This document shows, piece after piece, positions 31,558 through 63,538 of a stretch of DNA of 64,000 nt; position 1 is the first letter of the stretch, and the number at the start of each line of letters is the position of its first letter. The stretch comes from Haloferax litoreum. Its GTDB lineage: Archaea; Halobacteriota; Halobacteria; Halobacteriales; Haloferacaceae. Below the pieces are notes generated by a model. It saw nothing but the letters and a program-made list of their open reading frames with translations, had not been told where the DNA came from and ran no database searches. The DNA is taken from the NCBI RefSeq assembly GCF_009674605.1, contig NZ_WKJO01000001.1, positions 496,001 to 560,000 on the forward strand, in the 5' to 3' direction. Both the position numbers and the translations under genes were made by a program.

Positions 31558-31596
31558 GGCTCACAAGCGTGTAGAATATGGATGGGCCCCATGGGG
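31558..31596. repeat. attL: left 39-bp direct repeat
   Basis: This copy differs from the right one at a single base (A at 31578, T at 63459). It keeps only the last 14 nt of the tRNA sequence (TGGGCCCCATGGGG), so it is the displaced end created by integration. The core of strand exchange should lie within it. Confidence 0.85.
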
Positions 31597-31702
31597 GAGC
31601 ATCCAGATTCTCCCGCCTTGTCAGCCACCAGTTGGCAGGCACTTCAAGCCCTGAAACAGGCGTTTGGAAATCCGTCTTCTGGCGTTGTCCCGCCAAGTGA
31701 CC

Positions 31703-41385: not shown

Positions 41386-41453
41386 ATAAGGGTTAACAAG
41401 ACAATCTCAGTAGCGTTATTCACTGTCCTTTTTCAAAACTGCTGCTGAGTGAT

Positions 41454-44400
41454 TTATTGCTCTAACACGCCCCAACAGAGAACACGGGCATCCACATCAC
41501 CTGTCCCAGCCAACTTAGACTGGTACTCGGTTGAACCTTCGATGTTCTCATCGAGGAACTCTACCAACGTCTCGAAGAACTCGTCAAGGTCCCACTGCCC
41601 GAGTCCCTTGTCCTCTTTTCGGAAGGTTTCGCGGAGGATTCGGTCCTCGTCAGTATTCTTCAGTTTGACTTCCTTGATGCGCTCTAAGACGATTGGTGCA
41701 ACCACCGAAATCTCTGTATGCCCATCGACTGGTGTTGCTAACTCACCAGACGAGTTTCGCTTGAGGTGTCGAAGATAGGAAATGATTTTCTCCTGTTCGA
41801 CTGAATAATCGTCTCCTTCCTCGAATTTCGTCCCGATGATCCCTTGCTTTGCTTCTTCGATTCGTTTCTCGACAACCTCCTCAATGGCATCGCGTTCTTC
41901 GAGATATCGCTTGTCGTGGCTAGTCAGTTTTCGCCCCTCGGTGTCGGGGTTAATTTTGAGCGACCGAATCGCACTCACCTCGTCCACATCTTTCCCAGTT
42001 CGTTTCGAATAGAACGCCCTTCGAGTCCGACCAAGAGGTGCATCAGATTCGTCATCGAACCAGAGGTGTGCGAGGCCGAAGACCCCCGGTGCGTGTCCAC
42101 TCTTGGAATTGACTACGTTTGTGTACAACAGGTCTCGCTCTTCGGGGGGCATCTCGAAATATTCCTCCGCGTACTCGAAATCCTCTTCTCCAAGTCCGTA
42201 GTCGTCGTTCAACTCCTGTTTGAGCATCAGACGCTCGAACGCCTCGTCCTCGTCACTTCCTGCACTCCGCAGGAGAGGGTTTTTGGACGTATCATCGAGG
42301 TCGTTGTAGTCGTCAACCTCACGAGAGCGCCGGAGCGTGTCTTCGATTTCATCGAGTTCGAGTTCGCCAATCGTCTTCTGTGTTTTGACACCAGCTTTCT
42401 CCAGAATCTCGTCTTCGTTTGGGTCGAGGATATTGTTCTCTTTCCCGACGATGAGCGCGATGTCGTTGATCTTCGCTTGGAGGCGCTTGAGGAGCTTGAT
42501 GGCCGCCTCGATGTCGCCGTCGGGGTAGAAGTTGTGGACGAACTTGTCGGCGGTACTCCCGATACGGTCGATGCGACCGACACGCTGGACGATGCGCATA
42601 GGGTTCCACGGCAGGTCGTAGTTGATGACAGTGTGAACGTCCTGCAGGTTTACCCCCTCGCTGAGCGTGTCGGTGGCGACGACGTACTGCAACTCCCCAT
42701 CGCCAGTCCGGTCGAGTGTTTCACGATAGCCGTATGCGTCGGGGGCGAAGCGGCGAATCTTCTCTTGTTTGTCATCATCTCCGCCTTTGATGACGGTGCT
42801 GTTCTGCTCAGTGAGTGGTGATCGAGGGTCTTCGAGAAGAGTCCGGTAGACGTAGTCGGCAGTTGCGCGGTACTGCGTGAATACAAGGACTTTGTTGTCG
42901 TACCCAGCGAGGACACCATTCAGTCGGTCTATCTTCGGGTCACGGAAGTCACGGAGCCGGAAGATTGCATCGTAGAAGTCTCTCGTCTCTTTGGTTACCT
43001 CCGAGAGGTCCTGACTCGGGAAGAGCAACGGGTCAACTTCGTCCTCGGGCACGTCGGGGATGAATCCAACGTGGTTCTTCCCGAGCCACTGGCGGACGTG
43101 AACAGAGTGGTCGTTGAGGTGGTCTGCGTCCTTCGCAACGTCAGCGATGAACAACTGAAGGAAGTACGAGAGAAGTGCAAGATCCTCGTAGACACGCGCT
43201 TTCACCTCTGCGACAGTCAAGTCCGCAAGTTCGTCACTGGAGTCTCCATCGCCAGATCGGAGTGAATCAGCGTCGAATCCGAACTCTTCGAGCGTCTGTG
43301 CGAGGTCCTCTGTGGCTTCCCCGTCTTGGACGTAGTCGTCGAGTGTGACCGCAGCGCCGCCATCCTGAATCGTCCGCAGGGTGTCGATGTTCTCCTCATC
43401 AGGGAGGGAGTTGAGAACTGCCAACAGACTCTGTTCACTTTCGTAGAGCGTCTCGATACTTTGGACGAACGCGAAAGTCGACGATTCGAGACGCTTGAGC
43501 AGGTTCAGTTTGTAGAGTGCCTTCAGCGTACTCCCTGCCTGCGGGTTTTTGATGGTGATGTGCGGCAGGTGAAGCGCGTCCATCACTTCGGGGAGTGAAT
43601 CGTAGACTGGGCGATACGCCGGGGGAAGCGTGTACTCCTCCTTCTGAATCTTCGGAGGCTTGAAGCTCATCTCCAAATCGTCGTCCTTCTTCAGGAGTGT
43701 CTCTTTGACGTGCTTCCGAGTTCGAAGGACCATCACCTCGTTCAGGATCTTCGAAATCTCTCCGGACTCGTTCTGAAGTTGCTCAGTCAGCCCCTCCACC
43801 TCTTCTTGAGACATCTCTTCCTTCCCGGCGGCAACTCGCTTCCGCTGTTCTGCGACATCGATGTACCGGTCGAACGCAGTGAAGTCGAGATTCGCTTTGT
43901 TCCGAATCTCGTTTTTCTCCGTGAACAGTCCGATGAGATTCTTCAAATCGGTCGCACTGTTGTTCAGTGGCGTTGCCGTCAAGAGAATCATAGTCTTGTC
44001 TCGGAGAAGCCGAAGGTTTGCGTGCCGTCTCGTCCCCTTGTAATCATCGTCGTCGGAGGGGTTGGGTCGCCACTTTCCGTAGTTACGGAAGCGGTGGGCT
44101 TCGTCGATGAGGAGGACGTCGTATTGTTCACGGAGTTCGAGAACCTCGTCGTGGCTCATGTTCTGGAACTTGCTGATACTCGTGACATCGAGGTGAGTCC
44201 CGTCAACTTCGAGTCCGAAGTATGGGTCACCATCTTCGTCGGTCGCATCTTGGAGGAGGTCTTCCCACTGGTCGGTCAGGTTCGCGGGGACGATGAGTAA
44301 ACAGCGTTTACCCTGTTGCCGGTAGTCAAAGAGCAGTTCGCTGCCGATGAACGACTTCCCAAGGCCGACCGAGTCGGAGATGATACAGCCGTTATATTGA

Positions 44401-45242
44401 GCCAGCTTCTCCCACGCACTTTCGTATCCGATGGTCTGGAAGTAGTACAAGGGTGAGTCGCGGGCACTCACGTTCCCTCCGATTGCGTCATACGAGAGAA
44501 CCTTGTAGAGTTCGAAGGGTTCGATGTATGTGCCAAAGTCTACTTCGTCGTCTTCCTTGTCGTCTTCTTGGTCCTCTTTCCAGTCTTGGTACTTGCTGCT
44601 GTTTTCGATGACGTCGACGATTTCCCGAGAGAATTCCTCAGAGATAGCCCACTGGTTGTCGTACCACTCTTCGAAGGCCTCGACTTTCTGTGGGTCAGAA
44701 CTAGTGAGGTTTAGTTCGATGTTGTGCCGGTGGCCTGTCTGTGTGAAATTCGACGATCCGACAATGACTGCGGCATCACGTCTGTCGGTCTCCCCGTTTC
44801 TTTTTGAAGGGTCGTCGGTGGCTGTTCGGAAGGACGCTCCTTTGGCGTGGAAGTAACCGTTCTCTGGATTACGAATTCGAACGTCAACTAATCCTTGCTC
44901 AATGAAATCTCGAAGCCTATCGAGTCGCTCAATCTGTGCGTTGTTGAGGTCAGCCAGGTCAGATTTGAGCTGGTTCCTGAATTGCTCATGCAAGCTCTGG
45001 CCTTCCTCGATTTCATTTGCAGTACGAGCGTCAGTCTGGCGACCCATGAGAATCCGCATCGGAGCTTTCCCAAGGTCGTCCGGATCGAGTAACTTGTTCA
45101 AATCGTCTTTTACGAGATCGAATCCAGAGAGGTAGAAGTACCCCGTCGCGACGCGCACCTCTTCGCTGTCGGTGATGACCTCCTTGAACGTGTCCTCAAG
45201 AGTCCGCTCAGAATTGTCGACAAGGGGATCGAGATAAGGCAT
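41454..45242 (-). CDS. PLD-nuclease/SNF2-family helicase fusion
   Basis: Protein of 1262 residues. The N-terminal 200 residues form a phospholipase-D-type domain with His132-x-Lys134 (YFHAKGASF), a downstream VIVGSSNFTQTG and Glu176, giving one HKD-like site. A SNF2/DEAD helicase follows: Walker A SDSVGLGKS near 300, DEAH in LLIDEAHRFRN near 375, LLTATPLNNS, and the C-terminal lobe with VATDTLSEGVNLQDV and QRVGRIDRIG. The C-terminal 250 residues are unassigned. The PLD part could be a nuclease. Helicase-plus-methylase pairs of this kind occur in DISARM- and BREX-like defence, but no other core gene of those systems is present, so the exact class is open. Confidence 0.88.
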   Translation of the reverse strand: MPYLDPLVDNSERTLEDTFKEVITDSEEVRVATGYFYLSGFDLVKDDLNKLLDPDDLGKAPMRILMGRQTDARTANEIEEGQSLHEQFRNQLKSDLADLNNAQIERLDRLRDFIEQGLVDVRIRNPENGYFHAKGASFRTATDDPSKRNGETDRRDAAVIVGSSNFTQTGHRHNIELNLTSSDPQKVEAFEEWYDNQWAISEEFSREIVDVIENSSKYQDWKEDQEDDKEDDEVDFGTYIEPFELYKVLSYDAIGGNVSARDSPLYYFQTIGYESAWEKLAQYNGCIISDSVGLGKSFIGSELLFDYRQQGKRCLLIVPANLTDQWEDLLQDATDEDGDPYFGLEVDGTHLDVTSISKFQNMSHDEVLELREQYDVLLIDEAHRFRNYGKWRPNPSDDDDYKGTRRHANLRLLRDKTMILLTATPLNNSATDLKNLIGLFTEKNEIRNKANLDFTAFDRYIDVAEQRKRVAAGKEEMSQEEVEGLTEQLQNESGEISKILNEVMVLRTRKHVKETLLKKDDDLEMSFKPPKIQKEEYTLPPAYRPVYDSLPEVMDALHLPHITIKNPQAGSTLKALYKLNLLKRLESSTFAFVQSIETLYESEQSLLAVLNSLPDEENIDTLRTIQDGGAAVTLDDYVQDGEATEDLAQTLEEFGFDADSLRSGDGDSSDELADLTVAEVKARVYEDLALLSYFLQLFIADVAKDADHLNDHSVHVRQWLGKNHVGFIPDVPEDEVDPLLFPSQDLSEVTKETRDFYDAIFRLRDFRDPKIDRLNGVLAGYDNKVLVFTQYRATADYVYRTLLEDPRSPLTEQNSTVIKGGDDDKQEKIRRFAPDAYGYRETLDRTGDGELQYVVATDTLSEGVNLQDVHTVINYDLPWNPMRIVQRVGRIDRIGSTADKFVHNFYPDGDIEAAIKLLKRLQAKINDIALIVGKENNILDPNEDEILEKAGVKTQKTIGELELDEIEDTLRRSREVDDYNDLDDTSKNPLLRSAGSDEDEAFERLMLKQELNDDYGLGEEDFEYAEEYFEMPPEERDLLYTNVVNSKSGHAPGVFGLAHLWFDDESDAPLGRTRRAFYSKRTGKDVDEVSAIRSLKINPDTEGRKLTSHDKRYLEERDAIEEVVEKRIEEAKQGIIGTKFEEGDDYSVEQEKIISYLRHLKRNSSGELATPVDGHTEISVVAPIVLERIKEVKLKNTDEDRILRETFRKEDKGLGQWDLDEFFETLVEFLDENIEGSTEYQSKLAGTGDVDARVLCWGVLEQ

Positions 45243-49426: not shown

Positions 49427-50551
49427 CTACCAGCAGTTTCGAACGTACTCAGAGCGGTCCTGTTTCCGTTTTTGCTCCGTACGTGGGTCGTAGTGTCTTC
49501 GAAGAGTTTGCACGGACACATCGAACCGCTCACTCGCAATGTCTGGTCTCAGTCCGCTACTCAAGTGATGAACAATCGCACCCCGACGAATCGCGTGTGG
49601 GTAGAACGAAACGGGGCAGACTTCCGAGCGGGCACTACACTCACCGTCACAGTTTACAGAACTGTCCGGACTCGTGTTCCAGCGACAACTCGTTGCTTCG
49701 TACACTTTTCGACGCAGTGTGGATCGAGCAGCTCTACCTTGCGACGTAGCGAACAGCGGAGAGCGACCGAACTCATCAGTCACGTCCGGTCGTTCAAGTT
49801 CAATGTAGATTTCAATCGCGTTCACCACACACTCCTTGAGTGCGACGTTTCGCTCACCATTCCCAACATGGTCCTTGGTTTCACTCCCGTTCTTGAGACG
49901 AGTGCCTGTTGTCGGGCGGTGGCGTAATCTAATCTCGTTTTCTTCCGGGACGAAATCCCGGATGTCGAGTGAACGCGCTCCACCGATTCGAAGGCCTGCA
50001 TTCCAGAGGAGTTCAATCAGTGCGTGCTTCAGCGTTCCTCGCCGTTGGTTTCGGAGCTGCTCAAGAATTAATTCTGCCTCTCGAGTAGACAGGGCCTCAT
50101 CACGAGCCTTGGGGGAGAGTCCAAGGTCATCTTTATCCAGAATTCGGTAGAGCGACTCATCGCAGTATCCTCGCTTGGTGAGCCACCGAAGCCAACCGCG
50201 TACGTTCTTTGTGTACGTGAGAATCGTTGCGTCAGAGTTGTACCGTTCTTGGAGTGAGTCAACGTAACTGTCCAAGAGATGAATAGAGAGTTCCGACGGT
50301 TCAGCGACTTCATTCGATTCGGAGAACTCGATGAAATCCAAAATGGTTCGCTTGTATTGAGCGCGTGTCGATGGGCTACGGTCTTGCCGGCGAGACAGGA
50401 ACCGTTCGTAGAGTGTTACTAGAGATTCTTGGTTCGGTTTTTCTAGTCGTTGCCCCTTAGACTGATCACTGCCTTGCGTGATTTCGAGAACTTTTCTTAT
50501 CGCTACAGGGTCGTTGATCCGAGCCAATATCTGCTCTAGTTGCTTGTTCAT
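49427..50551 (-). CDS. Tyrosine recombinase (active-site complete)
   Basis: Tyrosine recombinase of 374 residues. Catalytic Arg188 (NAGLRIGGARSLD), His319/Arg322 (HAIRRGAIVHHL) and Tyr354 (RRHYDPRTEQ) are all present. The N-terminal SAM-like domain is at about 40-135. A Cys-rich stretch (Cys289, 301, 305, 312) lies just before the HxxR box, as in the element's integrase at 31703, and FGRSPLFATSQGR matches that protein too, so the two are related. The ATG overlaps the end of the upstream gene by 4 bp; that gene encodes a truncated, inactive relative, so the two are made together. Confidence 0.88.
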   Translation of the reverse strand: MNKQLEQILARINDPVAIRKVLEITQGSDQSKGQRLEKPNQESLVTLYERFLSRRQDRSPSTRAQYKRTILDFIEFSESNEVAEPSELSIHLLDSYVDSLQERYNSDATILTYTKNVRGWLRWLTKRGYCDESLYRILDKDDLGLSPKARDEALSTREAELILEQLRNQRRGTLKHALIELLWNAGLRIGGARSLDIRDFVPEENEIRLRHRPTTGTRLKNGSETKDHVGNGERNVALKECVVNAIEIYIELERPDVTDEFGRSPLFATSQGRAARSTLRRKVYEATSCRWNTSPDSSVNCDGECSARSEVCPVSFYPHAIRRGAIVHHLSSGLRPDIASERFDVSVQTLRRHYDPRTEQKRKQDRSEYVRNCW

Positions 50552-51483
50552 TCAGAATCGAGAGTTGATGAAATCGCATAGTGCCAGACGTCAGTGGGGG
50601 TGAGTGTCTGGAACCTTGTCTCAGAAACCTGTGCGCGATACTGTGAGCTTCCCAGCTTGTTTCGGAATTTCGAGTAATCGCTAGCTGCTTCACTGGCTAG
50701 TTTGAATGAACGGCGAAGGGTTGATGCGCTAATTCGACCATGAGTGGTCGTGAATAGAGGATTGGATTTAGAGTCATTCACCGCCTTACGCTCGTGTTCA
50801 ATATACGTCCTGAGAGCAGTGCAGGCACCATCAGAGAGCTTCGCAGTTCGTCGGTTGAGCAAGCCAACTGAACTCACAAGGTAGTTTTTAGAAATGCCAA
50901 CTGAGAGCGTCTTGTTCTCCAAATTGACGTCTGAGCGATCGAGCTCTATGAGCTGTCCTGGACGGCTCTTGGTGTCGCGCAATAACTCGACAAACGCGTG
51001 TGTTCTGGTCCCGGACCCTCTATCTTGGAGATAAGCGATCATAGCTTCAGATGACCAATGAAGCTCAGGACTTGGGTTGTTTAAACTGGAAAAGCGTGGG
51101 GCAAATTCTTTCGCAACAGAATGAACGGCCAATGAAGGATACTCTTCTAGAGAGGTGGCAATTTGAAACCGGAGCGCGTCTGGGCTACTCTTTGTAATGT
51201 AAGCAAGGAAATTAGTCAGGGTGTAGAGATATCCATGGATAGTGTCAGGTCTCTGGTCTTCCTCAGAGAGAAGAAATTCGACAAATCCGCTTATCTGATT
51301 AAAGCTTGAACTCGACTTCCTATCAGAAGTCTTCTGAAGCCAATTGACAAATTTTATTATGGCAGTTTGATGTGATAAGAAAGTTTGCTCTGGGACTTCT
51401 TGTGATAGGACATTGAGGTATGTGGAAGATGCTTCTTCGAGATTTCCCAAAGGTCCTCGACCACTAGTCTGAGGGGTCCTCAT
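50548..51483 (-). CDS. Catalytically inactive recombinase-like protein
   Basis: Protein of 311 residues with the layout of a tyrosine recombinase: N-terminal SAM-like half (LSHQTAIIKFVNWLQKTSDR; YLYTLTNFLAYITKS) and a catalytic-domain-like second half (AFVELLRDTKSRPGQLIELD; NPLFTTTHGRISASTLRRSF). An Arg can be aligned with the first catalytic Arg (TKSRPGQLIEL). The HxxR box is replaced by TPTDVWHYAIS, and the chain ends there, so the Tyr nucleophile is absent. It overlaps the active recombinase gene by 4 bp (ATGA). It is probably a partner or regulator rather than a decayed gene, since the frame is fully open and coupled. Confidence 0.75.
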   Translation of the reverse strand: MRTPQTSGRGPLGNLEEASSTYLNVLSQEVPEQTFLSHQTAIIKFVNWLQKTSDRKSSSSFNQISGFVEFLLSEEDQRPDTIHGYLYTLTNFLAYITKSSPDALRFQIATSLEEYPSLAVHSVAKEFAPRFSSLNNPSPELHWSSEAMIAYLQDRGSGTRTHAFVELLRDTKSRPGQLIELDRSDVNLENKTLSVGISKNYLVSSVGLLNRRTAKLSDGACTALRTYIEHERKAVNDSKSNPLFTTTHGRISASTLRRSFKLASEAASDYSKFRNKLGSSQYRAQVSETRFQTLTPTDVWHYAISSTLDSE

Positions 51484-51531
51484 TCTTGCAGCATCCTCCA
51501 GTTGCTACCCGAGAGGGGGTCACGTGCAGTT

Positions 51532-51619
51532 CTGTCCGAGTGGGTACTGAATGACCATTTCGCGCGATAGAATGGAAGATCTTTCTTCCCACATGGTCAC
51601 TCAGTGACCACTCGGACAG
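51532..51619. repeat. 26-bp inverted repeat upstream of recombinase operon
   Basis: Arms at 51532-51557 and 51594-51619 are inverted copies with three mismatches, separated by 36 bp. The right arm itself contains the perfect 17-bp palindrome TGGTCACTCAGTGACCA. A further small dyad GGAAG-N6-CTTCC lies in the spacer at 51574-51589. It begins 49 bp upstream of the inactive-recombinase start codon, and the IS was inserted 8 bp to its right. It has the form of a recombinase core site or an operator with paired binding sites. Confidence 0.6.
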
Positions 51620-51627
51620 TAGTGGCA

Positions 51628-51635
51628 GTAATTTT
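51628..51635. repeat. IS target duplication, left copy
   Basis: GTAATTTT directly before the left inverted repeat of the IS. It is identical to the eight bases after the right end. Confidence 0.85.
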
Positions 51636-51813
51636 GGCTCTGTTGAAACCCTATTTGTCAGATATCTTTCCTACTGAAACAGCTGCTACGGAGACGTGCT
51701 TACCTCACACGGACGAAGAGTGGCCTCAAGCTCGTCGGGTCGGTCAGCATACTCTTTTCGTGCAGGCTGAGTCAAAAAGAATATTTTAGCATATCTGCAC
51801 TCTACTCGTACGG

Positions 51814-52359
51814 ATGAGAGGCCCTGAAGAAGATGAAGAAATCGAACGAGCGATCCAGTATTTAGTCCACTCGTTCGAAACATCAGGGAATAATCCCAAA
51901 CCGGTGATACTCCATAGTACACGAGTCGGGATGGATCTTTACGACAGAGGATACGAGAAGCCCATCGTCATCTCCGGCTTCCTCCACGATCTAATAGAGG
52001 ATACGGATGTGACTGCTGCTGAGATTCGCTCGGAGTTCGGAGACGACGTTGGAAATATTGTGGCAGCCACCAGTTTCGACGAGAGTATAGACGACTATCT
52101 TGAACAGCACTACGATATCTATGAAAGATGCTTCGAACTTGGACGACCTGCTGTCGTCGTGAAAGCTGTGGATATCCTCGATAACAGTGATTACTACCAT
52201 TTGGGGGGGTCAGAGGAACTACGAAAAAACCTGATCGAGAAAATGGACTACTTCATCAGACACTCTGAACCGTATATTGGAGACGAAGACATCTATCAGG
52301 AACTAAAGGACAAGTTCCCCATCGTGAAGGAACGATTGGAAATAAAACCCGACAATTGA
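51814..52359 (+). CDS. SpoT/Mesh1-like HD hydrolase carried by the IS
   Basis: HD-domain protein of 181 residues, close in size to small alarmone hydrolases. The metal-binding and catalytic residues fit the RelA/SpoT hydrolase pattern: His34 (VILHSTRVGM), His58-Asp59 with the HDxxEDT form (FLHDLIEDTDVT), and Asp120 with Asn124 (VVKAVDILDN, compare KLADRLHN in SpoT). These suggest removal of the 3'-pyrophosphate of (p)ppGpp or a related nucleotide; other HD substrates are possible. A TATA-like GAATATTTTA lies about 30 bp before the ATG, so it has its own promoter. It lies wholly between the IS ends. Archaea generally lack long RelA/SpoT proteins, so the cargo is unexpected. Confidence 0.8.
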   Translation: MRGPEEDEEIERAIQYLVHSFETSGNNPKPVILHSTRVGMDLYDRGYEKPIVISGFLHDLIEDTDVTAAEIRSEFGDDVGNIVAATSFDESIDDYLEQHYDIYERCFELGRPAVVVKAVDILDNSDYYHLGGSEELRKNLIEKMDYFIRHSEPYIGDEDIYQELKDKFPIVKERLEIKPDN

Positions 52360-52434
52360 TTTATGGCTTGTTTGCACCGTGTTCCGGCTGGCCATCGAGT
52401 CAAAAGTGGCACGTTGCTGTTCTACATCTAACGG

Positions 52435-53256
52435 TCAGAATGTCTTGTCGATATTGTGAATGAGGCAGCTGACGACGAGTTCCCGGAACTTCTTCCACCA
52501 ATGTCGTGAGCGGACGAATGCGCCATATTTCCGTTTGAGACGGGAATTCACCGTCTCGTTCTGACTGCGTTGGCCGTAGAGGTCGGTGTCCAGCCGAGCG
52601 TTCCATGCCTTGTGGAGCGACGAAAAATCGCGGTGCTTGATGAGAGGACGAACACCATTTTCACGGGCTAACAAGCGAATCTTCTGGTCGTCGTATCCTT
52701 TGTCGCCAAGGAGAATCGCTACTTCTTCGGCATTTCGCTTGATGAGCGACGGTGCGATCTTCGAGTCGTGCTTTCTGGTCGTCGTTACGTGCAGATCAAG
52801 AATCGCATTCGCTCTCGTGTCCACGAGCAGTGTGACTTTCAACTGCTGAATCGTCAACTATGTTCGCTTCGTGTAGTGTTTCGAGGCGTGACTACGGTCG
52901 AATCCGGAGGCGTCGATCCCGACGGCACCGTTGGTCGGGAGGAGCGTAATCGAGGGGTTGAGAAGGACACGCCAGACAGCCATATCGAGTCGATTGAACG
53001 CCTTACACAACGTCGAAGGTGACGGGAGTTCCTCAAGATCGATGGCGCTCCGAATGCGAGGCATCTCGATCAGCTCGTTAAGCAGGGTTCGGTACGTTGT
53101 ATTCTTCCGCACCTTGAGACAGAGCAGGACGATGTGCTGGTGGAGTGTGTACCGTCGTTTCGAGAATCTTGAGGAGTAGCGAGCGACAGCTCGTTGAGCC
53201 AAGTTATACGCTTGCTCAACGAACCGGAGCAACCGCGAATTCGGGAGGGCCTGCAT
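52435..53256 (-). pseudogene. IS5-type DDE transposase with in-frame TAG stop
   Basis: The transposase reads from ATG 53256 through YSSRFSKRRYTLHQH and the first catalytic Asp (GIDASGFDRSHASKHY) to KRT, then TAG at 52860-52858. It continues in the same frame with LTIQQLKVTLLVDTRAN, second Asp (LLGDKGYDDQKIRLL), and Glu (QNETVNSRLKRKYG) to the stop at 52435. Without the TAG it would be a complete protein of about 273 residues with all three DDE residues, so a single nonsense change (for example AAG to TAG) has disabled it unless the stop is read through. No frameshift is seen. Confidence 0.85.
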
Positions 53257-53308
53257 TTAGTCAAACTACTGGATGAACCTGTAACTCTCTGAGGATTTCA
53301 ACAGAGCC

Positions 53309-53316
53309 GTAATTTT
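53309..53316. repeat. IS target duplication, right copy
   Basis: GTAATTTT, identical to 51628-51635, directly after the right terminal repeat. Confidence 0.85.
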
Positions 53317-53351
53317 GGAATGTGCAAAGACGTTTACAGCAGTCTGAAGTT

Positions 53352-54452
53352 TTACACTCCTAATTGAAGTCCCGGGAACAACTCTGCAACGAGTTCTTCA
53401 TAATCTTCTTCGTTGTGTTCATAATACTTTTTTGTGGTTTCCGTACTGCTGTGTCCCATGGCTGCGCTCCGAGCTTCGCGTGGAACTCCTGCATCAATCA
53501 TGAGCTGATTGAATGTGTGCCTAAGGGTGTGGAGAGTAACTCTGTGAAACACTCTGTACTCTCTGTTGTGACTAAACGTTGGTCTTTGTGCACCTGTGAG
53601 TTTAACCTTGCCAATAATTTCTTGAATTCCGGCGTTCTCAGCAGCTTCCACGATAGCCTCATTTAAACAAGTTTTTGACAGATGTTTTTTTCCTGTTCCG
53701 GGAAGTAGATATTCGTTTTCTGGATCTACGAGTGACGAGTTTCTACCAACTTCCAACCAATGACGGAGCTCTAAAGCCAACTCATCGTTAATTTTTGCTC
53801 TTTGCCAAATTCTAGACTTAGTATTATAGAATACGATTCTATTTTCATCTAAATTGATATTACTTACTTTTAACTTCTGGAGGTCCGAGCATCTTAGACC
53901 GTGCTCAAGCACAATTCGAGCTATTAGACGATCTCTTAGTGAACACAAATTATCCATCAACAACTTTACCTCTTCAGCTGATATTGACCTACGCTCAATA
54001 GGAGGCAGCGTAGGATATTGAGACGGTTTAATAAATTCATCGATATTATACCATTCAAGATTTAATTCATCATCAAAATGAACATCAATGAACCGGTATA
54101 TGTTTTTCAACGATGTCCTGTATCCTAATAGTGTATTCTTTCTTTTTCCTTCATCGCATAACATGTTGAAAAATGAATGAACGTGCTGCATCTCTGCTGT
54201 ACAAACAGTAAGTTCATCGTTGTAGATGTAATCTGAGAATCGGTTCAGGCGGCAGGAATACGCTTGAGCACTCCCAGGACGGATATTTCCATCGATGTTT
54301 TCACAAAGATAATTGATCACATGCCCGCACCTTGCATCCATTAAGTTGTATTCATTTTGCAACTCTTTCCAACGAGCTCGTTCTTTTGCATCTTTGTATA
54401 GTGGACAGACAGGAGAATCTGAAGGGATCTGATGCGAGGTTTTACGAATCAT
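53352..54452 (-). CDS. Tyrosine recombinase, second module
   Basis: Tyrosine recombinase of 366 residues. Catalytic Arg187 (EHGLRCSDLQKL), His308/Arg311 (HTLRHTFNQLM), His334 (GHSSTETT) and Tyr343/344 (KKYYEHNEED) are present. The block REYRVFHRVTLHTLRH and the preceding AAENAGIQEIIGKVKLTG are shared with the recombinase at 55560, so these two are paralogues. It is distinct from the Cys-rich type at 31703 and 49427. The start codon overlaps the upstream RHH/winged-helix gene by 4 bp. Codon use is strongly AT-rich. Confidence 0.88.
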   Translation of the reverse strand: MIRKTSHQIPSDSPVCPLYKDAKERARWKELQNEYNLMDARCGHVINYLCENIDGNIRPGSAQAYSCRLNRFSDYIYNDELTVCTAEMQHVHSFFNMLCDEGKRKNTLLGYRTSLKNIYRFIDVHFDDELNLEWYNIDEFIKPSQYPTLPPIERRSISAEEVKLLMDNLCSLRDRLIARIVLEHGLRCSDLQKLKVSNINLDENRIVFYNTKSRIWQRAKINDELALELRHWLEVGRNSSLVDPENEYLLPGTGKKHLSKTCLNEAIVEAAENAGIQEIIGKVKLTGAQRPTFSHNREYRVFHRVTLHTLRHTFNQLMIDAGVPREARSAAMGHSSTETTKKYYEHNEEDYEELVAELFPGLQLGV

Positions 54453-55057
54453 GCTTCACCAGACATATCTTCTCCATTCGAAGTGCCTGCTCTAAGTTGG
54501 TATTCTGTAATTCCATCGTTGACGATCGATGTAACTAGAAAGCGGGAATCAAGACGTCCCACGCTATCACGCACCTCCGATTCTATTCTCCCACAATGGT
54601 CCGATATTTCAGAGAGTGTTGCTTTCTTAAGATGCTTGATTGAGTCGTAAGTGTCATTGTCGATAGCTGTTTTTTCATTTGCGCCACTTTCTGGCTTAGG
54701 GGCGGATTCTGTCAATGGAATTCTTGGAAGTGAACCGTCAGAGCCAGTCTCCAGTTGGGTGGAGTGCTTCAATGGAAGCTGTGGACCAACAATGACTGAA
54801 AGTAGGCTTTCAATTATTCCAGACAATTCGTGTAATTTCTCAGATTGGGAATCAACTTTCTTATGGAGTAGCTTGATTGAATCTTCACTATCACCATCAA
54901 GTGTACGCTCGTGGTCAGTAATGCACGCACGCAGAGCTTCACTTCGTGAGACGTAGTAGTTCGACGCCATCTGGTCAAGGATTTTGCTATGACGAAGTGT
55001 AATCGTACAATTCGGTTTTACAAGCTTTTGTGACGCGGGTTTTGCATTTTGGCGCAT
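54449..55057 (-). CDS. RHH/coiled-coil/winged-helix protein paired with recombinase
   Basis: Protein of 202 residues. The N-terminal part up to about 50 is ribbon-helix-helix-like (NCTITLRHSKILDQMASNYY followed by SRSEALRACITDHE). A coiled coil follows (IKLLHKKVDSQSEKLHELSG), a low-complexity linker, and a C-terminal winged helix (SIKHLKKATLSEISDHCGRI; DSRFLVTSIVNDGITEYQL). ATG 55057 has GGGTGA at a 6-nt spacing; ATG 55063 is an alternative two codons longer. It is coupled to the recombinase by ATGA. The same layout is seen at 56570-57100, so these are probably DNA-binding partners or directionality factors of the recombinases. Confidence 0.68.
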   Translation of the reverse strand: MRQNAKPASQKLVKPNCTITLRHSKILDQMASNYYVSRSEALRACITDHERTLDGDSEDSIKLLHKKVDSQSEKLHELSGIIESLLSVIVGPQLPLKHSTQLETGSDGSLPRIPLTESAPKPESGANEKTAIDNDTYDSIKHLKKATLSEISDHCGRIESEVRDSVGRLDSRFLVTSIVNDGITEYQLRAGTSNGEDMSGEA

Positions 55058-55063
55058 ACTCAT

Positions 55064-55559
55064 TCACCCAGTATATCACACCCTGCTCTGGAGTTGGTGG
55101 GAATAGTTTGATTGCTATCAACCTCACCTGAAAGGAGGATGGTTTGTTGTTCGGTAGTTCTTACTTCTAGCCGCCTCCGACCTTGCTGGCGTTGGGTATG
55201 GCTGTCGCTAGGGTTGGTTTCTAACATTGCTTACTAGCCACTTTCTATTGAACCAGTGACAACAGCAACAACCTCAACCGAATCTCGATCTTAATCGGCT
55301 GATTGGAGGTCACTTTTGTCGAAGTTAGCTCTGTTACTGAGGTGGCTGTGCCAAATAATTACACTCGGGAGTATATATGCCTATTTTATCTGTGATATTC
55401 AATCAAAAACCGGCAGTACTAAAGATTAGTTTATTTCATAAACCACGCCACCATATATACTTTATATAGAGGCATAACAGGATACACTCATTATGTGCTA
55501 ATCAGTGTAATTGGACAATTGTTCATATCTTCAAAGTACACGGTTATGAGAAGATCGCG
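55064..55559. other. Gene-free AT-rich gap between recombinase modules
   Basis: About 500 bp without a convincing open frame. It should contain the promoter of the RHH gene to its left (reading leftward) and perhaps a recombination site. There are AT-rich blocks such as CATATATACTTTATATAG near 55451-55470. I found no clear long inverted repeat, tandem repeat or RNA gene. Confidence 0.4.
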
Positions 55560-56573
55560 TTATCGAGGAGGGTCAAACTGGTCTCTAATCGACTCAAAAA
55601 TGTTGTCCCGACTATGCGTATATCCCTGAGTTGTTCTGTAGGTTGAGTGGTTAGCCAACAATTGGCGGTACTCTAAGGATACACCTGCTTCGTTTAACAG
55701 CGTAATGAAAGAGTGACGAAGAGTGTGTGGAGTCACTCTATGCCATTCTCGGTATTGTTTCTCCGTTCCGAGTACGTCCTGCTGCGAAGGGGTGAGCTTT
55801 GATTGAGCAATTACCCGTTGAACCCCAGCCCGGTCTGCGGCATCTCTAACAATTTTATTGAGGCTGCTATTGTGCTCGAGTTTGTGTCCCGATTGACTAG
55901 GAAATAGATACTCGCTTTCATTCGCAGCACAGTAGGCCGGTCGATGATGACGAAGCCAAAACCCGATCTCAAACTCCAATTCGTCGCTTATTGGGACATC
56001 GTAGGGTTTGGAATACTTCGGGGTTGGAACATGAAGCTCGCAACGTTCAGTGTTGACGTCGTCTATTTTGATTTCTCTCAGGTCAGAGTTCCTCAGTCCT
56101 GTTTCAATTCCAACAACGACGATGAGTCTATTCCTGTAGCTGTTGAACGCACTGAACAGCTTTCGTATCTCTTCTCGGGTCAGTGCATCTCTCTTGATGA
56201 GTTCTGGTGTGTTGTACCGGCTCAAGTCAATTTCCGAGATGCGAAGTGGATCGAAGAGAAGTTCATCGCCAACATCTGTTCGAAGACGAATATATCGATA
56301 CAGCTCACTCACAGTTGAGACCTTTCCGCTAATCGTCGTCTCTCGATTTCCGCGCAAGACGCACTCTTCAATGAATTCGATTAAATCGATGAACTCGGCT
56401 GTGAGTATCGACTTGTCTTGAGCGTGGAGGAATGTGGCGTATTGAGTGAGATGAGAGTCGTATGTCTTTACCGTCTGTGGAGAAAGCGAAAGGGTTGAAT
56501 TCTTTCTGAGGTACTCTTGTGCGAGCTCATCCGGTACTCGGAGTTCGACAGGCTCCGATTGTCGCTCCGTCAT
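55560..56573 (-). CDS. Tyrosine recombinase, first module
   Basis: Tyrosine recombinase of 337 residues. Arg161 (IETGLRNSDLREIK), His283/Arg286 (HTLRHSFITLL), His309 (LLANHSTYRTT) and Tyr318 (GYTHSRDN) complete the active site. The N-terminal SAM-like domain is at about 15-110. It is paralogous to the recombinase at 53352 (shared WHRVTPHTLRHSF and DAADRAGVQRVIAQSKLT). The ATG overlaps the TGA of the RHH/winged-helix gene by 4 bp. It is the last gene of an operon that starts with the Cas4-like nuclease at 58821. Confidence 0.88.
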   Translation of the reverse strand: MTERQSEPVELRVPDELAQEYLRKNSTLSLSPQTVKTYDSHLTQYATFLHAQDKSILTAEFIDLIEFIEECVLRGNRETTISGKVSTVSELYRYIRLRTDVGDELLFDPLRISEIDLSRYNTPELIKRDALTREEIRKLFSAFNSYRNRLIVVVGIETGLRNSDLREIKIDDVNTERCELHVPTPKYSKPYDVPISDELEFEIGFWLRHHRPAYCAANESEYLFPSQSGHKLEHNSSLNKIVRDAADRAGVQRVIAQSKLTPSQQDVLGTEKQYREWHRVTPHTLRHSFITLLNEAGVSLEYRQLLANHSTYRTTQGYTHSRDNIFESIRDQFDPPR

Positions 56574-57100
56574 GGACCGCTCCTCAAGTAGTGCTGAGAA
56601 AAGCCAGCGAGAGTGAATCTTTCTCCATCCTCTCCTGTGCGAGTCACAACCCCACGGTCAACGAGTCTTCCCAAGGCGGGCTGAACCTTGTGCATACCAA
56701 GATCCAATTGCTCAACCAGATCGCCGAATTCGAGACCATCTCCAGTTGTTTTGAGTAATTCGATGATGCGAACCATCTCATTAGTCATGGATGGTTCGGT
56801 CAGTTGTTGACCATCGGCGGATTCTCGGTGGGATTCCTGGAGACCACTTCTAACCGAAGTTATCTCCATCAAGAGAGTTCTTTGTTCATCCACCAGGTTT
56901 TCGAGCTGGCGTTCTATCCGTCGGGTGGCCATGTACCCTTCCCCTTCCAGAATTTCTCGGTAACTCTCGATGGACGCACGAAGGCAGAGACTGACGTTCC
57001 CCTGGTAGTAACGGTCAGCCATCTGCTTCAGAACCTCGTCGAGTGATTCTGTAATCGTGAATTTCCGCCGAATGAATTCGGGTCTATACTCATCAGCCAT
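56570..57100 (-). CDS. RHH/coiled-coil/winged-helix protein, first module
   Basis: Protein of 176 residues if started at ATG 57100, which has CAGGTGC about 5-7 nt upstream; an in-frame ATG at 57151 would add 17 residues. RHH-like N-terminus (RRKFTITESLDEVLKQMADR with SLCLRASIESYREI), a coiled coil (RRIERQLENLVDEQRTLLME), then a winged helix (NEMVRIIELLKTTGDGLEFG; LDLGMHKVQPALGRLVDRGV; wing RTGEDGERFTL). It matches the architecture of the protein at 54449. The coupling to the recombinase by a 4-bp overlap suggests that they act as one unit. Confidence 0.68.
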   Translation of the reverse strand: MADEYRPEFIRRKFTITESLDEVLKQMADRYYQGNVSLCLRASIESYREILEGEGYMATRRIERQLENLVDEQRTLLMEITSVRSGLQESHRESADGQQLTEPSMTNEMVRIIELLKTTGDGLEFGDLVEQLDLGMHKVQPALGRLVDRGVVTRTGEDGERFTLAGFSQHYLRSGP

Positions 57101-57169
57101 TTTTGCACCTGTGGCTAAACAGCGATTGGCAAGGGGCAGAACTCGTTCCATCGGTATTGACTATTTGAT

Positions 57170-57724
57170 TCAAAGTGGTTCACCAACCAATTCTGTAGAA
57201 GGGACCAGCCTGAATATCTGCGACCAGACTCTCCAGAACAATTCAGCAGCTCCTGTACTTACCACTCCAGATGTTCTGCCCTCTGTACGCCGAGGTGGAG
57301 AACGCAATTCTCGACCGAAGCCATAATCATCCAAACTTTGGTCGAAATAGCACTCTAGCTGCTCTTCGAGAGCCAAGTGTCCGAAGCCACGGAGTGAATT
57401 CTGTTTTGCTGGATCCACCAGCTCCTGGCGCAATTTGACGAGAGTGTCTCGATCTGGGGTGATGAGAACAATCCCGTCGTACCTGTACTGTTCAATCTGG
57501 TTCAGTAGTTGGTCGACTAATTCGTCTGTAGACTGGACCCCACTGCTGCCAACGAGTGCTGCTTTTGTCTCGACTAGCGCGTCAGCATTCCCTATCCCAA
57601 TCTCCCAGTATCCAGGTTCCACAGAAGTCTGGATTTCAGCGTGATCCGTTTCACCAATCTCGAGGAGTAAGAACAGCCAACTCTCACGGAGATCGTCGAG
57701 ATGCATCCATCTGTGGCCTCTCAT
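57170..57724 (-). CDS. Possible PD-(D/E)XK protein coupled to Cas4-like nuclease
   Basis: Protein of 184 residues, not assigned to a known family. The segment GNADALVETKAALVG has the spacing of a PD-(D/E)XK site (Asp48, Glu52, Lys54), followed by a helix (DELVDQLLNQIEQYRYDG) and a strand (IVLITPDRDTL), as in restriction-type folds. The match is by eye and could be chance. The start overlaps the Cas4-like gene end by 4 bp, and the RHH gene follows within about 70 bp, so all four genes from 58821 to 55560 appear to be one operon. Confidence 0.55.
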   Translation of the reverse strand: MRGHRWMHLDDLRESWLFLLLEIGETDHAEIQTSVEPGYWEIGIGNADALVETKAALVGSSGVQSTDELVDQLLNQIEQYRYDGIVLITPDRDTLVKLRQELVDPAKQNSLRGFGHLALEEQLECYFDQSLDDYGFGRELRSPPRRTEGRTSGVVSTGAAELFWRVWSQIFRLVPSTELVGEPL

Positions 57725-58821
57725 TGGTAACCCCCACGAGATTGCTCAAGAGGTGAGGGACCTCTGAGCGAGGACACTCTTCCCTTCTCAGAGCAATCTG
57801 GACATCGAGGTGGCGTTTGAGTTGGCTTGCCTGGCGACACAGTATCCCACGGATGAGACGTCTCACAGCGCTCGCAGAGCCAATCAAATGCCCCGTACTC
57901 GTCGACGAGTGATGGATACGCGTGAGCGAGCGAAGGCGTCAATCTCGCGTCTTCATTTGCGTCAAGATAGTCGAGAAGTTTCTCTCGTGGGTAACCAGTG
58001 AAGTTCGGCAACAGCCCCTCACTTGGACTGTCCGAAATCGGACGGCTGCCACGTCCACACCGCTCTCGGAATGAACAGTAGTTGCACTCCCAGCCGTACT
58101 CAGGGTTCGGAGGTGGTAGCCTCTCTTCGAGTCTGTACTCAGTGTGGTTGGTTGCCCATTCCAGTACGACGTCGTGCCAGAATGCCTCGTCAAACTCGAC
58201 GTGGAAAATTTTGACTTCGAGTGACTTGCGGCAGCCATAGATGATGACTCCCTTAGTCAGTTCAACGTCGTACTTTGCCGAGAGACCAACCATGTACGCG
58301 TGTAGCTGGGCGCGGTGAATCCTGCTCGACTTGGAAACGTGGTCAATCGAGGACTTGGTCTTGATTTCCGTCGGGACGATTGGATTGGATTCTTCGTCGA
58401 CAATGACCGGGTCAGTTGAGCCTGTGAAGTGTAATTCTCCCGCTCGAGTTTCAACTTGAAAATCTAACCAGTCAGTATTACGCACGTAGGTATCAGAGTT
58501 TGATGCTACACTCCTCAAAAATGGAAACGCGATGTGCTCTTCGAACAGGGTACCTACCCAGAAGATTCCATCTGGGTCTGAGGTCTCTTCAGGGGCGTTC
58601 AATTGGTCGTATGTGACTTTCCTATGGCACTGGAGGAGCTTACTGGGGCGATGGTGTGTTGGGTCTGGAACAGCACTTGGCCCATTGAAGTGGGGTTTGC
58701 CCTCTTCGATATTCTGCCTGTGGTTACGTTGAGTGTACCAATCTCGGAAATTTCCTGGTGTGAGTTTGTTGAGTAATTCGGAGCGAAGGGAGCCCCCAAC
58801 AATGGAGTGTATATCGGCCAT
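57721..58821 (-). CDS. Cas4-like Fe-S nuclease with C-terminal zinc ribbon
   Basis: PD-(D/E)XK nuclease of 366 residues in the Cas4/RecB family (numbering below from the ATG six codons upstream at 58839). Cys71 (LLQCHRK) and Cys252/255/261 (ECNYCSFRERCG) give the four ligands of a Cas4-type [4Fe-4S] cluster. The nuclease core is visible as GSTDPVIV (Asp143), PTEIKTKSS (Glu158-x-Lys160) and HRAQLHAYMVG (Gln178). The extra C-terminal part has two CxxC pairs (CERC, CPDC), probably a zinc ribbon. No CRISPR array or cas1/cas2 is in the window; the partner genes are recombination proteins, so DNA end processing during recombination is the better guess. Confidence 0.8.
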   Translation of the reverse strand: MADIHSIVGGSLRSELLNKLTPGNFRDWYTQRNHRQNIEEGKPHFNGPSAVPDPTHHRPSKLLQCHRKVTYDQLNAPEETSDPDGIFWVGTLFEEHIAFPFLRSVASNSDTYVRNTDWLDFQVETRAGELHFTGSTDPVIVDEESNPIVPTEIKTKSSIDHVSKSSRIHRAQLHAYMVGLSAKYDVELTKGVIIYGCRKSLEVKIFHVEFDEAFWHDVVLEWATNHTEYRLEERLPPPNPEYGWECNYCSFRERCGRGSRPISDSPSEGLLPNFTGYPREKLLDYLDANEDARLTPSLAHAYPSLVDEYGAFDWLCERCETSHPWDTVSPGKPTQTPPRCPDCSEKGRVSSLRGPSPLEQSRGGYQ

Positions 58822-59035
58822 GATTTTGGGCGAAGTCAATCATTGTATCTTCGCTGTGGACTGGAAACGTGGGAGAACTATTTCGTCTATGGCCCATTGA
58901 TGGATTCGGGGTACGATTTAGTTCTTTAAGAAATGTGAGCAGGTCCTGTTGAAGCCGTTAATCAGAGATTGTTTTTCAAATATTGCTGAATAAAGTGAAT
59001 GTGATCTGCGTAATAACGTTCTATACATAGCCTAT

Positions 59036-61030: not shown

Positions 61031-61102
61031 TTGGCGGCAAAGAGTCACGATTACGATTGATAAGTCCACCTCTCTTCATCTGGAAATTTGAATAAAGATA
61101 CT

Positions 61103-61498
61103 CTATCTGTCATTGGTTTCCTCTTCTGAGTAAGAATTCAATTCTGACCAAAAATACTCTAACGTAGGAGTCCCGGTATCGAGAAGAAGCGCAACAGCAT
61201 CTAAATTCGGTCCGGGAAATATTTTCTGCCGGTTGGAATCATAGATGACAACACCTGCCTTCTGTAGCGTCGGTAGATGTGTCTGCGAGAGCGAATTGTA
61301 CACGTTCCGGTACGGCTCCCCTGTTGCATGAGAGATAGATGTTTGTTCTTCATTTGCAGCGATCTCGCGGGCCACCGACCGAACTGTCACTACAGAACGT
61401 TCAGTGCTGTGGAGAATGGAAATCACCTGTCGTCGTCTATTTGCACGGAGAACGTGATAAAGACGTGATTGGAACTTGTCTGAGGTCTCATCACTCAT
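61103..61498 (-). CDS. Winged-helix regulator (soluble)
   Basis: Protein of 131 residues with one winged-helix domain (RLYHVLRANRRRQVISILHS; VRSVAREIAANEEQ; NVYNSLSQTHLPTLQKAGVV; wing IYDSNRQKIFPG). It is homologous by eye to the domain of the chromosomal membrane protein at 19325 but lacks the membrane helices. The ATG at 61498 is preferred over an in-frame start at 61570. It is divergent from the small HTH gene at 61605, with about 105 bp between them, which suggests shared regulation. Confidence 0.68.
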   Translation of the reverse strand: MSDETSDKFQSRLYHVLRANRRRQVISILHSTERSVVTVRSVAREIAANEEQTSISHATGEPYRNVYNSLSQTHLPTLQKAGVVIYDSNRQKIFPGPNLDAVALLLDTGTPTLEYFWSELNSYSEEETNDR

Positions 61499-61604
61499 GG
61501 TTTTTGGACTTCTCTTTTGCTGCCATTGATTAACAGGGACCGAATCATAATAGTTCCTACGTAGGAGCAAATATGTAACCTATGTGATAGCAGAGGTCGG
61601 GTTG

Positions 61605-61859
61605 ATGGAAAATGGTCCAGGGCGGCCACCCACGGTATCAGATGATCAAATATTGGATGTATTCAAGTCATCAGCGGATCCTGTTCTGACTGCTTCTGAA
61701 CTTGCGGACGAACTTGATATCGGGCGACGTGGAGTGCTTGCGAGGCTCGAAACGCTTGAAGAGCGAGGATACCTACGATCAAAGAAGGTTGGTGGAAGAA
61801 GTACAGTTTGGTGGTACCCTGGATACAGTTCAACGACTCCAGTTGATCCAGATCAGTAG
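61605..61859 (+). CDS. Small winged-helix protein
   Basis: Protein of 84 residues built almost wholly of a winged helix: GRPPTVSDDQILDVFKSSAD, the helix-turn-helix LTASELADELDIGRRGVLAR and the wing RGYLRSKKVGGRSTVWWYPG. The wing sequence (STVWWYPG) is common in haloarchaeal ArsR/phage-type regulators. It may repress itself and the divergent gene at 61103. The ATG at 61605 is chosen over a GTG seven codons earlier. Confidence 0.68.
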   Translation: MENGPGRPPTVSDDQILDVFKSSADPVLTASELADELDIGRRGVLARLETLEERGYLRSKKVGGRSTVWWYPGYSSTTPVDPDQ

Positions 61860-63438: not shown

Positions 63439-63477
63439 GGCTCACAAGCGTGTAGAATTTGGATGGGCCCCATGGGG
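63439..63477. repeat. attR: right 39-bp direct repeat
   Basis: Copy of the left repeat with one mismatch. Its last 14 bp (63464-63477) are the 3' end of the intact tRNA(CAT) gene; the other 25 bp lie downstream of the tRNA. The element thus left the tRNA complete. Confidence 0.85.
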
Positions 63478-63538
63478 TTCGAACCCATGACCACCCGGTT
63501 ATGAGCCGAGCGCTCTGACCAGACTGAGCTAGGGGCCC
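63464..63538 (-). tRNA. tRNA with CAT anticodon (probably Ile2, possibly Met)
   Basis: 75-nt tRNA that folds fully: acceptor GGGCCCC paired with GGGGCCC, D-arm GCTC/GAGC, anticodon stem CTCGG/CCGGG with loop CTCATAA, T-arm ATGGG/CCCAT with TTCGAAC, discriminator A. Anticodon CAT without an intron. The initiator is unlikely because the first pair is G-C, while archaeal initiators begin with A. As I recall, elongator tRNA-Met of H. volcanii has an intron, so this intronless one may be the tRNA-Ile2 that reads AUA after C34 modification. It is the integration target of the element. Confidence 0.85.

Follow-up and report, generated by a model that had tools for sequence, protein, structure and literature searches.

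Partner-coupled tyrosine recombinases inside tRNA-Met integrative defence islands of haloarchaea

Multi-recombinase elements that combine a dead subunit with a small coiled-coil helper have so far been bacterial; the islands described here would be an archaeal family. SEs, found mainly in a subset of Gammaproteobacteria, carry the four-gene set intA-tfp-intB-srap and 13–19 bp inverted repeats, and encode two active tyrosine recombinases (there called IntA and IntB), Tfp, which lacks the catalytic residues, and the small coiled-coil protein Srap (PMC10214605). GInts encode several integrases, GinC (which is without part of the catalytic set) and a small protein that putatively binds DNA; at one end an operon has three integrase genes in succession and then the small ginD, the cargo ranges from 2.5 to 70 kb, the repeats are direct and imperfect, insertion is at a protein gene, and GInts have been reported absent from archaea (PMC5385486). 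The target-specific Tn554 family (TnpA, TnpB, TnpC) has more than one tyrosine recombinase and a small accessory protein, and RIT (recombinase in trio) elements have three recombinases, all with the catalytic tyrosine, and 34-bp terminal inverted repeats (PMC10214605). TnpC, Srap and GinD, all small and putatively DNA-binding or coiled-coil, are required for recombination in their own elements (PMC5385486, PMC10214605).

The locus analysed here holds a module with four tyrosine-recombinase-like genes (intA to intD) and a fifth recombinase, IntL, at a distance. A first-pass annotation of the module knew of no described system with its set of genes. Our literature search, with subscription papers and bioRxiv largely outside its coverage, returned no title or abstract describing the module; the exact set is thus unmatched in the literature searched, but SEs, GInts and Tn554 are close functional analogues in bacteria. 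Compared by description, SEs and this locus both join active recombinases to a dead recombinase-fold protein and a small accessory protein, with overlapping genes, cargo and site-specific insertion (PMC10214605). Unlike SEs, the locus has five recombinases, two ribbon-helix-helix (RHH) partners each placed before its own recombinase, a Cas4-like nuclease, an archaeal host, a different gene order, and direct tRNA-Met repeats in place of inverted repeats. GInts, again compared by description, are likewise multi-integrase islands with a catalytically deficient member, variable cargo and direct repeats, whereas here rhhA-IntA-rhhB-IntB-IntC-IntD is internal and IntL lies at the far end, so that the cargo has recombinases to either side, and insertion is at tRNA-Met. 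Tn554, from Gram-positive bacteria, has no dead recombinase and no Cas4-like gene. The run of neighbouring tyrosine recombinase genes recalls RIT elements, but IntC is without the catalytic tyrosine, which sets the locus apart from them. Among archaea, tRNA-targeting integrative elements and haloarchaeal islands also have a tyrosine integrase at one end, tRNA repeats, low GC and restriction-modification cargo, whereas the available parts of these accounts describe no partner-coupled recombinase series (PMC8371274, PMC11078007).

An integrative island at tRNA-Met

Coordinates are positions within the window, the whole 64,000-nt stretch of Haloferax litoreum contig NZ_WKJO01000001.1 that was analysed. 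The four-recombinase module is by its sequence context not free-standing. It is housed in a low-GC island of ~32 kb (31.9 kb between 39-bp direct repeats) and is part of integrative islands at tRNA-Met that have an integrase of their own at one end, a setting which the first-pass annotation had overlooked. The island features are as follows.

31558..31596, unstranded: distal attachment repeat, 39 bp, 38/39 identical to 63439–63477
31664..32725, plus strand: IntL, tyrosine recombinase, 68 bp inside the distal attachment repeat
37780..45242, unstranded: defence cargo, two genes (PADLOC)
37780–41385, plus strand: type IIG restriction-methylation protein (cargo; PADLOC)
41454–45242, minus strand: HKD-SNF2 helicase (cargo; PADLOC)
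63439..63477, unstranded: proximal attachment repeat, overlapping the tRNA-Met 3′ end
63464..63538, minus strand: elongator tRNA-Met (CAT), the integration target

Three features by which a tRNA-integrating island is recognized were found: direct repeats, one of them a tRNA 3′ end; an integrase gene located at one end; and an empty site in a relative. The unoccupied site, in a genome of the same genus (G261), has 349 bp between tRNA-Met and the left flank and an att scar, without the island. The cargo of these islands consists for the most part of defence genes, and the island of G251 carries a homologous pair of type IIG restriction-methylation protein and HKD-SNF2 helicase.

Judged by sequence, IntL is likely to be the tRNA-Met integrase of the island. 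Its orthologues (66–73% identity) occupy the tRNA-distal end of tRNA-Met islands, and the IntL islands of G181, G308, G387, G271 and G263 likewise adjoin tRNA-Met. An IntL orthologue is present in 19 of the 21 genomes with intD; in the 18 genomes having both genes on one contig, they are always 1–40 kb apart and are convergent in 16. IntL also occurs without IntD (G090, G263, G271, G338 and G362), suggesting that IntC–IntD is dispensable, at any rate as far as residence at tRNA-Met goes. Genome G262 has three copies of IntL.

Internal recombinases and their partners

The four consecutive minus-strand genes annotated as recombinase-like all encode Pfam Phage_integrase matches, and the module that they form with their neighbours reads as follows.

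49427..50551, minus strand: IntD, tyrosine recombinase; Phage_integrase 3e-5; R, HxxR and Y kept
50548..51483, minus strand: IntC, C-truncated tyrosine-recombinase-fold protein; Phage_integrase 1e-10; no catalytic HxxR...Y
53352..54452, minus strand: IntB, tyrosine recombinase; Phage_integrase 5e-25; full catalytic set
54449..55063, minus strand: rhhB, partner of IntB; RHH – coiled coil – winged helix
55560..56573, minus strand: IntA, tyrosine recombinase; Phage_integrase 7e-26; full catalytic set
56570..57151, minus strand: rhhA, partner of IntA; the 176 aa annotated earlier correspond to a start at residue 18
57170..57724, minus strand: nuc2, RNase H-like / DEDD-exonuclease fold
57721..58839, minus strand: Cas4-like PD-(D/E)XK nuclease
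61103..61570, minus strand: DUF7344 (winged-helix-like) protein, whose gene precedes Cas4 in many related loci
61584..61859, plus strand: small winged-helix protein at the upstream end of the module; its gene diverges from that of DUF7344

Active-site motifs are retained in IntA, IntB, IntD and IntL and absent from IntC. Every IntC homologue (294–334 aa) stops before HxxR...Y, and by sequence IntC is conserved but catalytically dead, a kind of recombinase also present in bacterial SEs and GInts. The IntC and IntD genes overlap by 4 bp (50548–50551); IntB and IntC are separated by a broken IS transposase (52435–53256) and an opposite-strand ORF (51814–52359). The IntD of G064 is C-truncated.

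The 4-bp overlaps between partner and recombinase genes were confirmed for rhhA–IntA (56570–56573) and rhhB–IntB (54449–54452), and an AlphaFold2 model of rhhA with helices at 35–48 and 53–110 and a winged helix at 124–181 (mean pLDDT 77) backs the proposed RHH – coiled coil – winged helix domain order; the model's top Foldseek matches are MarR/ArsR-type winged helices. Partner homologues, as the first-pass annotation had asked, are always beside a tyrosine recombinase: across 391 haloarchaeal genomes, all 24 full-length homologues lie directly upstream of one, with gaps of +23 to −212 bp, a 4-bp overlap being commonest. Partner matches below E 1e-16, which covered the winged-helix domain or little more, were not counted; the exception among these weak matches was one in G181, spanning positions 18–168 of 180. 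No rhhA was found on plasmids. The idea of a dedicated recombination system with a partner for each recombinase holds in part. Conservation of the set in different haloarchaeal families makes dedicated recombination machinery the best reading, but only two of the four recombinases have partners, and the two without, IntC and IntD, pair up, with IntC catalytically dead.

The complete module recurs with the same gene order in five other haloarchaeal islands, arguing that it is not a chance arrangement; four of these have resolved ends, all at tRNA-Met. The conserved core order is wHTH – DUF7344 – Cas4-like – nuc2 – rhhA – IntA – rhhB – IntB – IntC – IntD, and six genomes from several families keep order and overlaps at 40–60% protein identity for most genes. 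tRNA-Met and a distant direct repeat enclose the full module in G064, G118, G023 and G251, and IntL (67–73% identity) is placed just within that repeat; the repeats are at the same tRNA in G064, G118 and G251 and near the tRNA in G023. Modules are split within the tRNA-Met islands of G040 and G089. The rhhB–IntB pair, tandem in six loci, is inverted relative to rhhA–IntA in G040, G089, G176 and G229 and displaced by 520 kb in G037, suggesting that RHH–Int pairs behave as cassettes. A search for inverted repeats gave no convincing flanking repeats around the inverted rhhB–IntB units. In G040, intA and intB converge on a Hma-type defence set.

Compared across loci, the intA–rhhB and intB–intC gaps showed no conserved recombination site, and their short inverted repeats are locus-specific and, by estimate, few enough for chance. 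Single-sequence scans of genome contigs and viral contigs with IntA gave no match. An alignment-based scan found only four relatives at ≥50% identity, all haloarchaeal (Natrialba chahannaoensis, Halolamina pelagica, Halorubrum tebenquichense and Halorientalis salina), with the next at ≤33%; among viral contigs nothing was close across the full length.

Possible roles of the module and competing explanations

The island, its att repeats, the end-located IntL, the core order, the dead IntC and the defence cargo are features of the DNA itself. The best reading, drawn from them and from analogy, is that the island may work like SEs, GInts and Tn554, as an archaeal multi-recombinase integrative island. 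That the four recombinase genes are the internal recombination core of integrative defence islands using elongator tRNA-Met as their attachment site is a proposal to which we give an even chance. IntL would recombine tRNA-Met with the island, and the IntC–IntD pair may take part in that reaction alongside IntL, IntC perhaps serving as an architectural subunit that binds DNA, comparable to Tfp in SEs and GinC in GInts; intD and intL are convergent, one on each side of the cargo, suggesting that one acts from each end. The two RHH–Int pairs would be self-contained recombinase cassettes, in which a dimeric RHH – coiled coil – winged helix protein, playing the part of TnpC, Srap or GinD, may hold two DNA sites together and load or orient the recombinase that belongs to it, and these cassettes could move, invert or exchange cargo blocks within the island. 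The Cas4-like nuclease would be an accessory DNA end-processing factor common to several unrelated recombinase classes. An archaeal family of this kind would help explain the assembly and exchange of haloarchaeal defence islands, and its partner-coupled cassettes, in tandem, inverted and displaced states, are natural variants for dissecting the role of extra recombinases.

Transcription regulators are the commonest setting of RHH and winged-helix domains, and translational overlap by itself fits autoregulation; both are what would be expected if the partners were operon autorepressors only, with no part in recombination. We regard this as somewhat unlikely: the partners are never seen without a recombinase (24 of 24 full-length homologues, 391 genomes), each travels with its recombinase as a unit when inverted or displaced, the module is already headed by a second dedicated regulator pair (wHTH / DUF7344), and TnpC, Srap and GinD are needed for recombination in their own elements. 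It is highly improbable that IntA and IntB are phase-variation invertases flipping promoter or gene segments of the island; both orientations of rhhB–IntB relative to rhhA–IntA do occur, in different genomes, but the window and the inverted loci showed no invertible segment framed by inverted repeats, and no duplicated partial coding sequences were found.

The stretch Cas4 – nuc2 – rhhA – IntA – rhhB – IntB could instead be cargo, a nuclease–recombinase conflict system for defence or inter-element competition that rides in tRNA-Met islands. Its neighbouring cargo is mostly defence, plasmids and other islands also carry related Cas4-like modules, and its distribution is patchy (54 of 391 genomes). 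However, the set stays beside IntC–IntD in many islands, its recurring variant modules hold at least one DNA recombinase or transposase rather than sensors or effectors, and PADLOC, run on two of the module's proteins, matched the Cas4-like one to generic Cas4 models only and gave no match to nuc2; we judge this explanation unlikely. A pile-up of remnants at a tRNA-Met hot spot, with IntL, IntC–IntD and the RHH–Int pairs left by successive elements and not acting together, would be consistent with the triplicated IntL of G262, with att scars and variable occupancy within the same genus, and with IS insertions and some truncated recombinases in the islands. It appears quite unlikely against the shared gene order and overlaps of six genomes drawn from several families, the intact catalytic residues of IntA and IntB, and the proximity of IntL to IntD in 18 of 18 genomes.

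The Cas4-like nuclease and the head of the module

The module opens, as annotated, with a Cas4-like nuclease (Pfam Cas_Cas4 / PDDEXK_1 at 57721–58839), in which D143, E158, K160 and cysteines 71, 252, 255 and 261 are invariant among 54 homologues. It shares the PD-(D/E)XK motif and four cysteines with CRISPR Cas4 and casposons, but has an additional C-terminal zinc ribbon (C322, C325, C346, C349) and scores 47 bits against NCBIfam TIGR00372, under the cut-off of 65. No Cas1 was found among the annotated island genes, and no Cas4-like gene in phage records. The adjoining nuc2 gene, overlapping by 4 bp (57721–57724), had been called a second possible nuclease; its product has an RNase H-like/DEDD exonuclease fold, but the DEDD acids are not conserved and nuc2 is possibly inactive.

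The Cas4-like gene and its recombinases also occur away from tRNA-Met, suggesting that they may be a separate unit carried by these islands. At other loci the homologous gene adjoins serine recombinases or a DDE transposase. We tentatively raise the possibility, which we think rather doubtful, that the Cas4-like protein, often with wHTH/DUF7344, is a fixed head that accepts, interchangeably, recombinases of unrelated chemistry, as new archaeal mobile-element machinery. The attachable sets would be RHH-coupled tyrosine recombinase pairs, a TFIIB-like protein with two serine recombinases, and an Orc1/Cdc6-like ATPase with a DDE transposase, and the nuclease would supply a step that all three chemistries share, for example end resection or target opening. 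A Cas4-like nuclease common to tyrosine, serine and DDE enzyme contexts is unexpected and directly testable. In G177, G078, G268 and G181, a TFIIB-like protein and serine recombinases fill the slot between Cas4 and IntC–IntD.

Integration at tRNA-Met and the probable role of IntL

The window (G000:C1:496001-560000 of a 3.56-Mb haloarchaeal genome) shows a drop in GC content from about 0.63 to 0.43–0.55 at around 32 kb, which persists until about 62 kb. Two copies of a 39-bp direct repeat, 38/39 identical, lie at 31558-31596 and 63439-63477; the right one overlaps the 3' end of a tRNA gene:

63464-63538, elongator tRNA-Met

In G261, a genome of the same genus, the same tRNA-Met and left flank are separated by 349 bp containing an attachment-site scar. 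The GC drop, the direct repeats and this empty site therefore indicate that the interval of around 32 kb between the repeats, within which the recombinase series lies, is an integrated island; by standard sequence criteria, the element is of the tRNA-targeting type. The tRNA-Met gene is intronless in the window and carries an intron of 31–37 nt at the islands of G064, G118, G023 and G251.

Examination of full-module loci with 40-kb flanks revealed that these same four genomes also house the module in tRNA-Met islands with direct repeats, and that each has an orthologue of IntL (the fifth recombinase, 31664-32725, plus strand; 67–73% identity) just inside the far repeat and pointing inward. Split modules lie inside tRNA-Met islands in G040 and G089. 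IntL orthologues form a distinct group (at least 66% identity; other full-length matches, at most 54%) and were found in 24 genomes, with IntD orthologues in 21 and both in 19. Where both were on one contig, they were 1–40 kb apart (18/18) and usually convergent (16/18). Also at tRNA-Met are the IntL islands of G263 and G271, where IntD was not found. From the placement of IntL, its co-occurrence with IntD and these last islands, the tRNA-Met integrase is most likely IntL, usually accompanied by IntC–IntD.

Island cargo is mostly defence: type IIG and HKD-SNF2 genes in the window and G251, DISARM in G114, Hma in G040 and a type I methyltransferase in G064. The window island also encodes a 792-aa protein (45344-47722) with DTDGDGL...D calcium-binding-type (thrombospondin type 3-like) repeats.

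Recombinases, nucleases and RHH partners

Pfam and NCBIfam bore out the first-pass identification of four tyrosine-recombinase-like proteins (IntA–IntD) and a Cas4-like protein. Overlaps of 4 bp join three gene pairs and the junction of Cas4 with nuc2, the possible second nuclease. Alignments across six genomes showed that R...HxxR...H...Y is kept in IntA and IntB, and R...HxxR...Y in IntD and IntL, except for a truncated IntD in G064. The IntC homologues read (294–334 aa) end before HxxR and Y, so IntC is a conserved, dead recombinase-fold protein. A two-frame IS transposase (52435-53256, minus strand) is inserted between IntB and IntC; L174:17218-18078 encodes an intact 286-aa homologue.

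The Cas4-like protein, which has an added zinc ribbon, keeps D143, E158, K160 and cysteines 71, 252, 255 and 261 across 54 homologues. For nuc2, the suspected nuclease identity held at the level of fold, the model being RNase H-like/DEDD exonuclease (best matches 3'hExo and ERI2, E 2e-4), but its activity is doubtful because E41 is the sole invariant acid.

In the AlphaFold2 model of rhhA, the ribbon-helix-helix (RHH) partner of IntA (pLDDT 77), a short helix follows the predicted ribbon strand, another helix runs for 58 residues and the C-terminus folds as a winged helix; the best Foldseek matches are MarR/ArsR-like winged helices. The first-pass annotation had asked whether such partners always accompany a tyrosine recombinase. 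A profile of rhhA and rhhB (the IntB partner) searched against 391 haloarchaeal genomes gave 24 matches of near-whole-profile coverage, the remainder being essentially winged helix only. All 24 lay immediately 5' to a recombinase of the IntA/IntB type and pointed the same way, most frequently with the 4-bp overlap seen in the window. A dedicated pairing of RHH protein and recombinase is favoured by this distribution.

The core order wHTH/DUF7344–Cas4-like–nuc2–rhhA–IntA–rhhB–IntB–IntC–IntD recurs in G118, G064, G023, G251 and G262; the window, G118 and G262 have extra genes separating DUF7344 from Cas4. In the window, one of these (59036-61069) encodes a 677-aa protein of unassigned family; other islands have different extra genes there. 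The rhhB–IntB unit is on the strand opposite to rhhA–IntA in G040, G089, G176 and G229, and the G037 copy is 520 kb distant, close to IntC/IntD fragments. In G040, convergent intA and intB flank the Hma-type defence set. These inverted and displaced units, together with the Hma arrangement, therefore suggest that RHH–Int pairs behave as cassettes; neither repeats nor shared core sites were found at the pair borders. A palindromic motif, TTAGTTCTTT...AAAGAACTAA, lies between the small wHTH and DUF7344 genes (L024:706-1508 and the matching L025 gap), is shared by G064, G118 and G262, and looks like a candidate operator.

Comparison with known elements and a proposed mechanism

Sequence establishes the integration at tRNA-Met, the terminal position of IntL, the conserved core, the dead IntC, the regular pairing of RHH proteins with recombinases and the defence cargo. 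The island resembles SEs, GInts and Tn554 in combining several recombinases with small helpers, and SEs and GInts in having one dead recombinase. Its gene order, ends and site place it outside all three. The arrangement is apparently undescribed in the literature searched, most subscription papers being outside the search scope. Tfp and GinC have been proposed as architectural subunits in SEs (PMC10214605) and GInts (PMC5385486), respectively; by analogy, IntC may serve the IntD/IntL reaction in such an architectural capacity. RHH proteins, like TnpC, Srap and GinD, could be loading or orienting factors. More speculatively, the task of IntA and IntB might be to rearrange cargo blocks or swap them, and that of Cas4 to process DNA ends.

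The Cas4-like protein beside other recombinases

The Cas4-like protein is present in 54 of the 391 genomes. Besides the tyrosine form, its largest neighbourhood group has a TFIIB-like protein and two serine recombinases, and a smaller set has a DDE transposase:

L107:5043-10446, L086:8713-14214 (minus) and about 25 others like them: Cas4-like, then TFIIB-like protein, serine recombinase
L091:10313-15201, L094:664-7607 and about 9 others like them: Orc1/Cdc6-like AAA+ ATPase, Cas4-like, divergent HxlR winged helix, DDE transposase

At the serine loci, the second serine recombinase is the larger, and a recombinase of IntD/IntL type often lies convergent to it. The Orc1/Cdc6-like loci recall Tn7, with its nuclease/ATPase/DDE set.

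In G177, G078, G268 and G181, the serine form occupies the RHH–Int position between Cas4 and IntC–IntD, and yet other recombinases hold the place upstream of IntC–IntD in G308, G387, G104 and G114. The slot thus tolerates differing recombinase chemistry, which argues for recombination as the module's job. At L179:33-5163 and L180:68-5129, the slot upstream of IntC–IntD contains three proteins: one of 216 aa, a divergent tyrosine recombinase (420–448 aa) and one of 237–276 aa.
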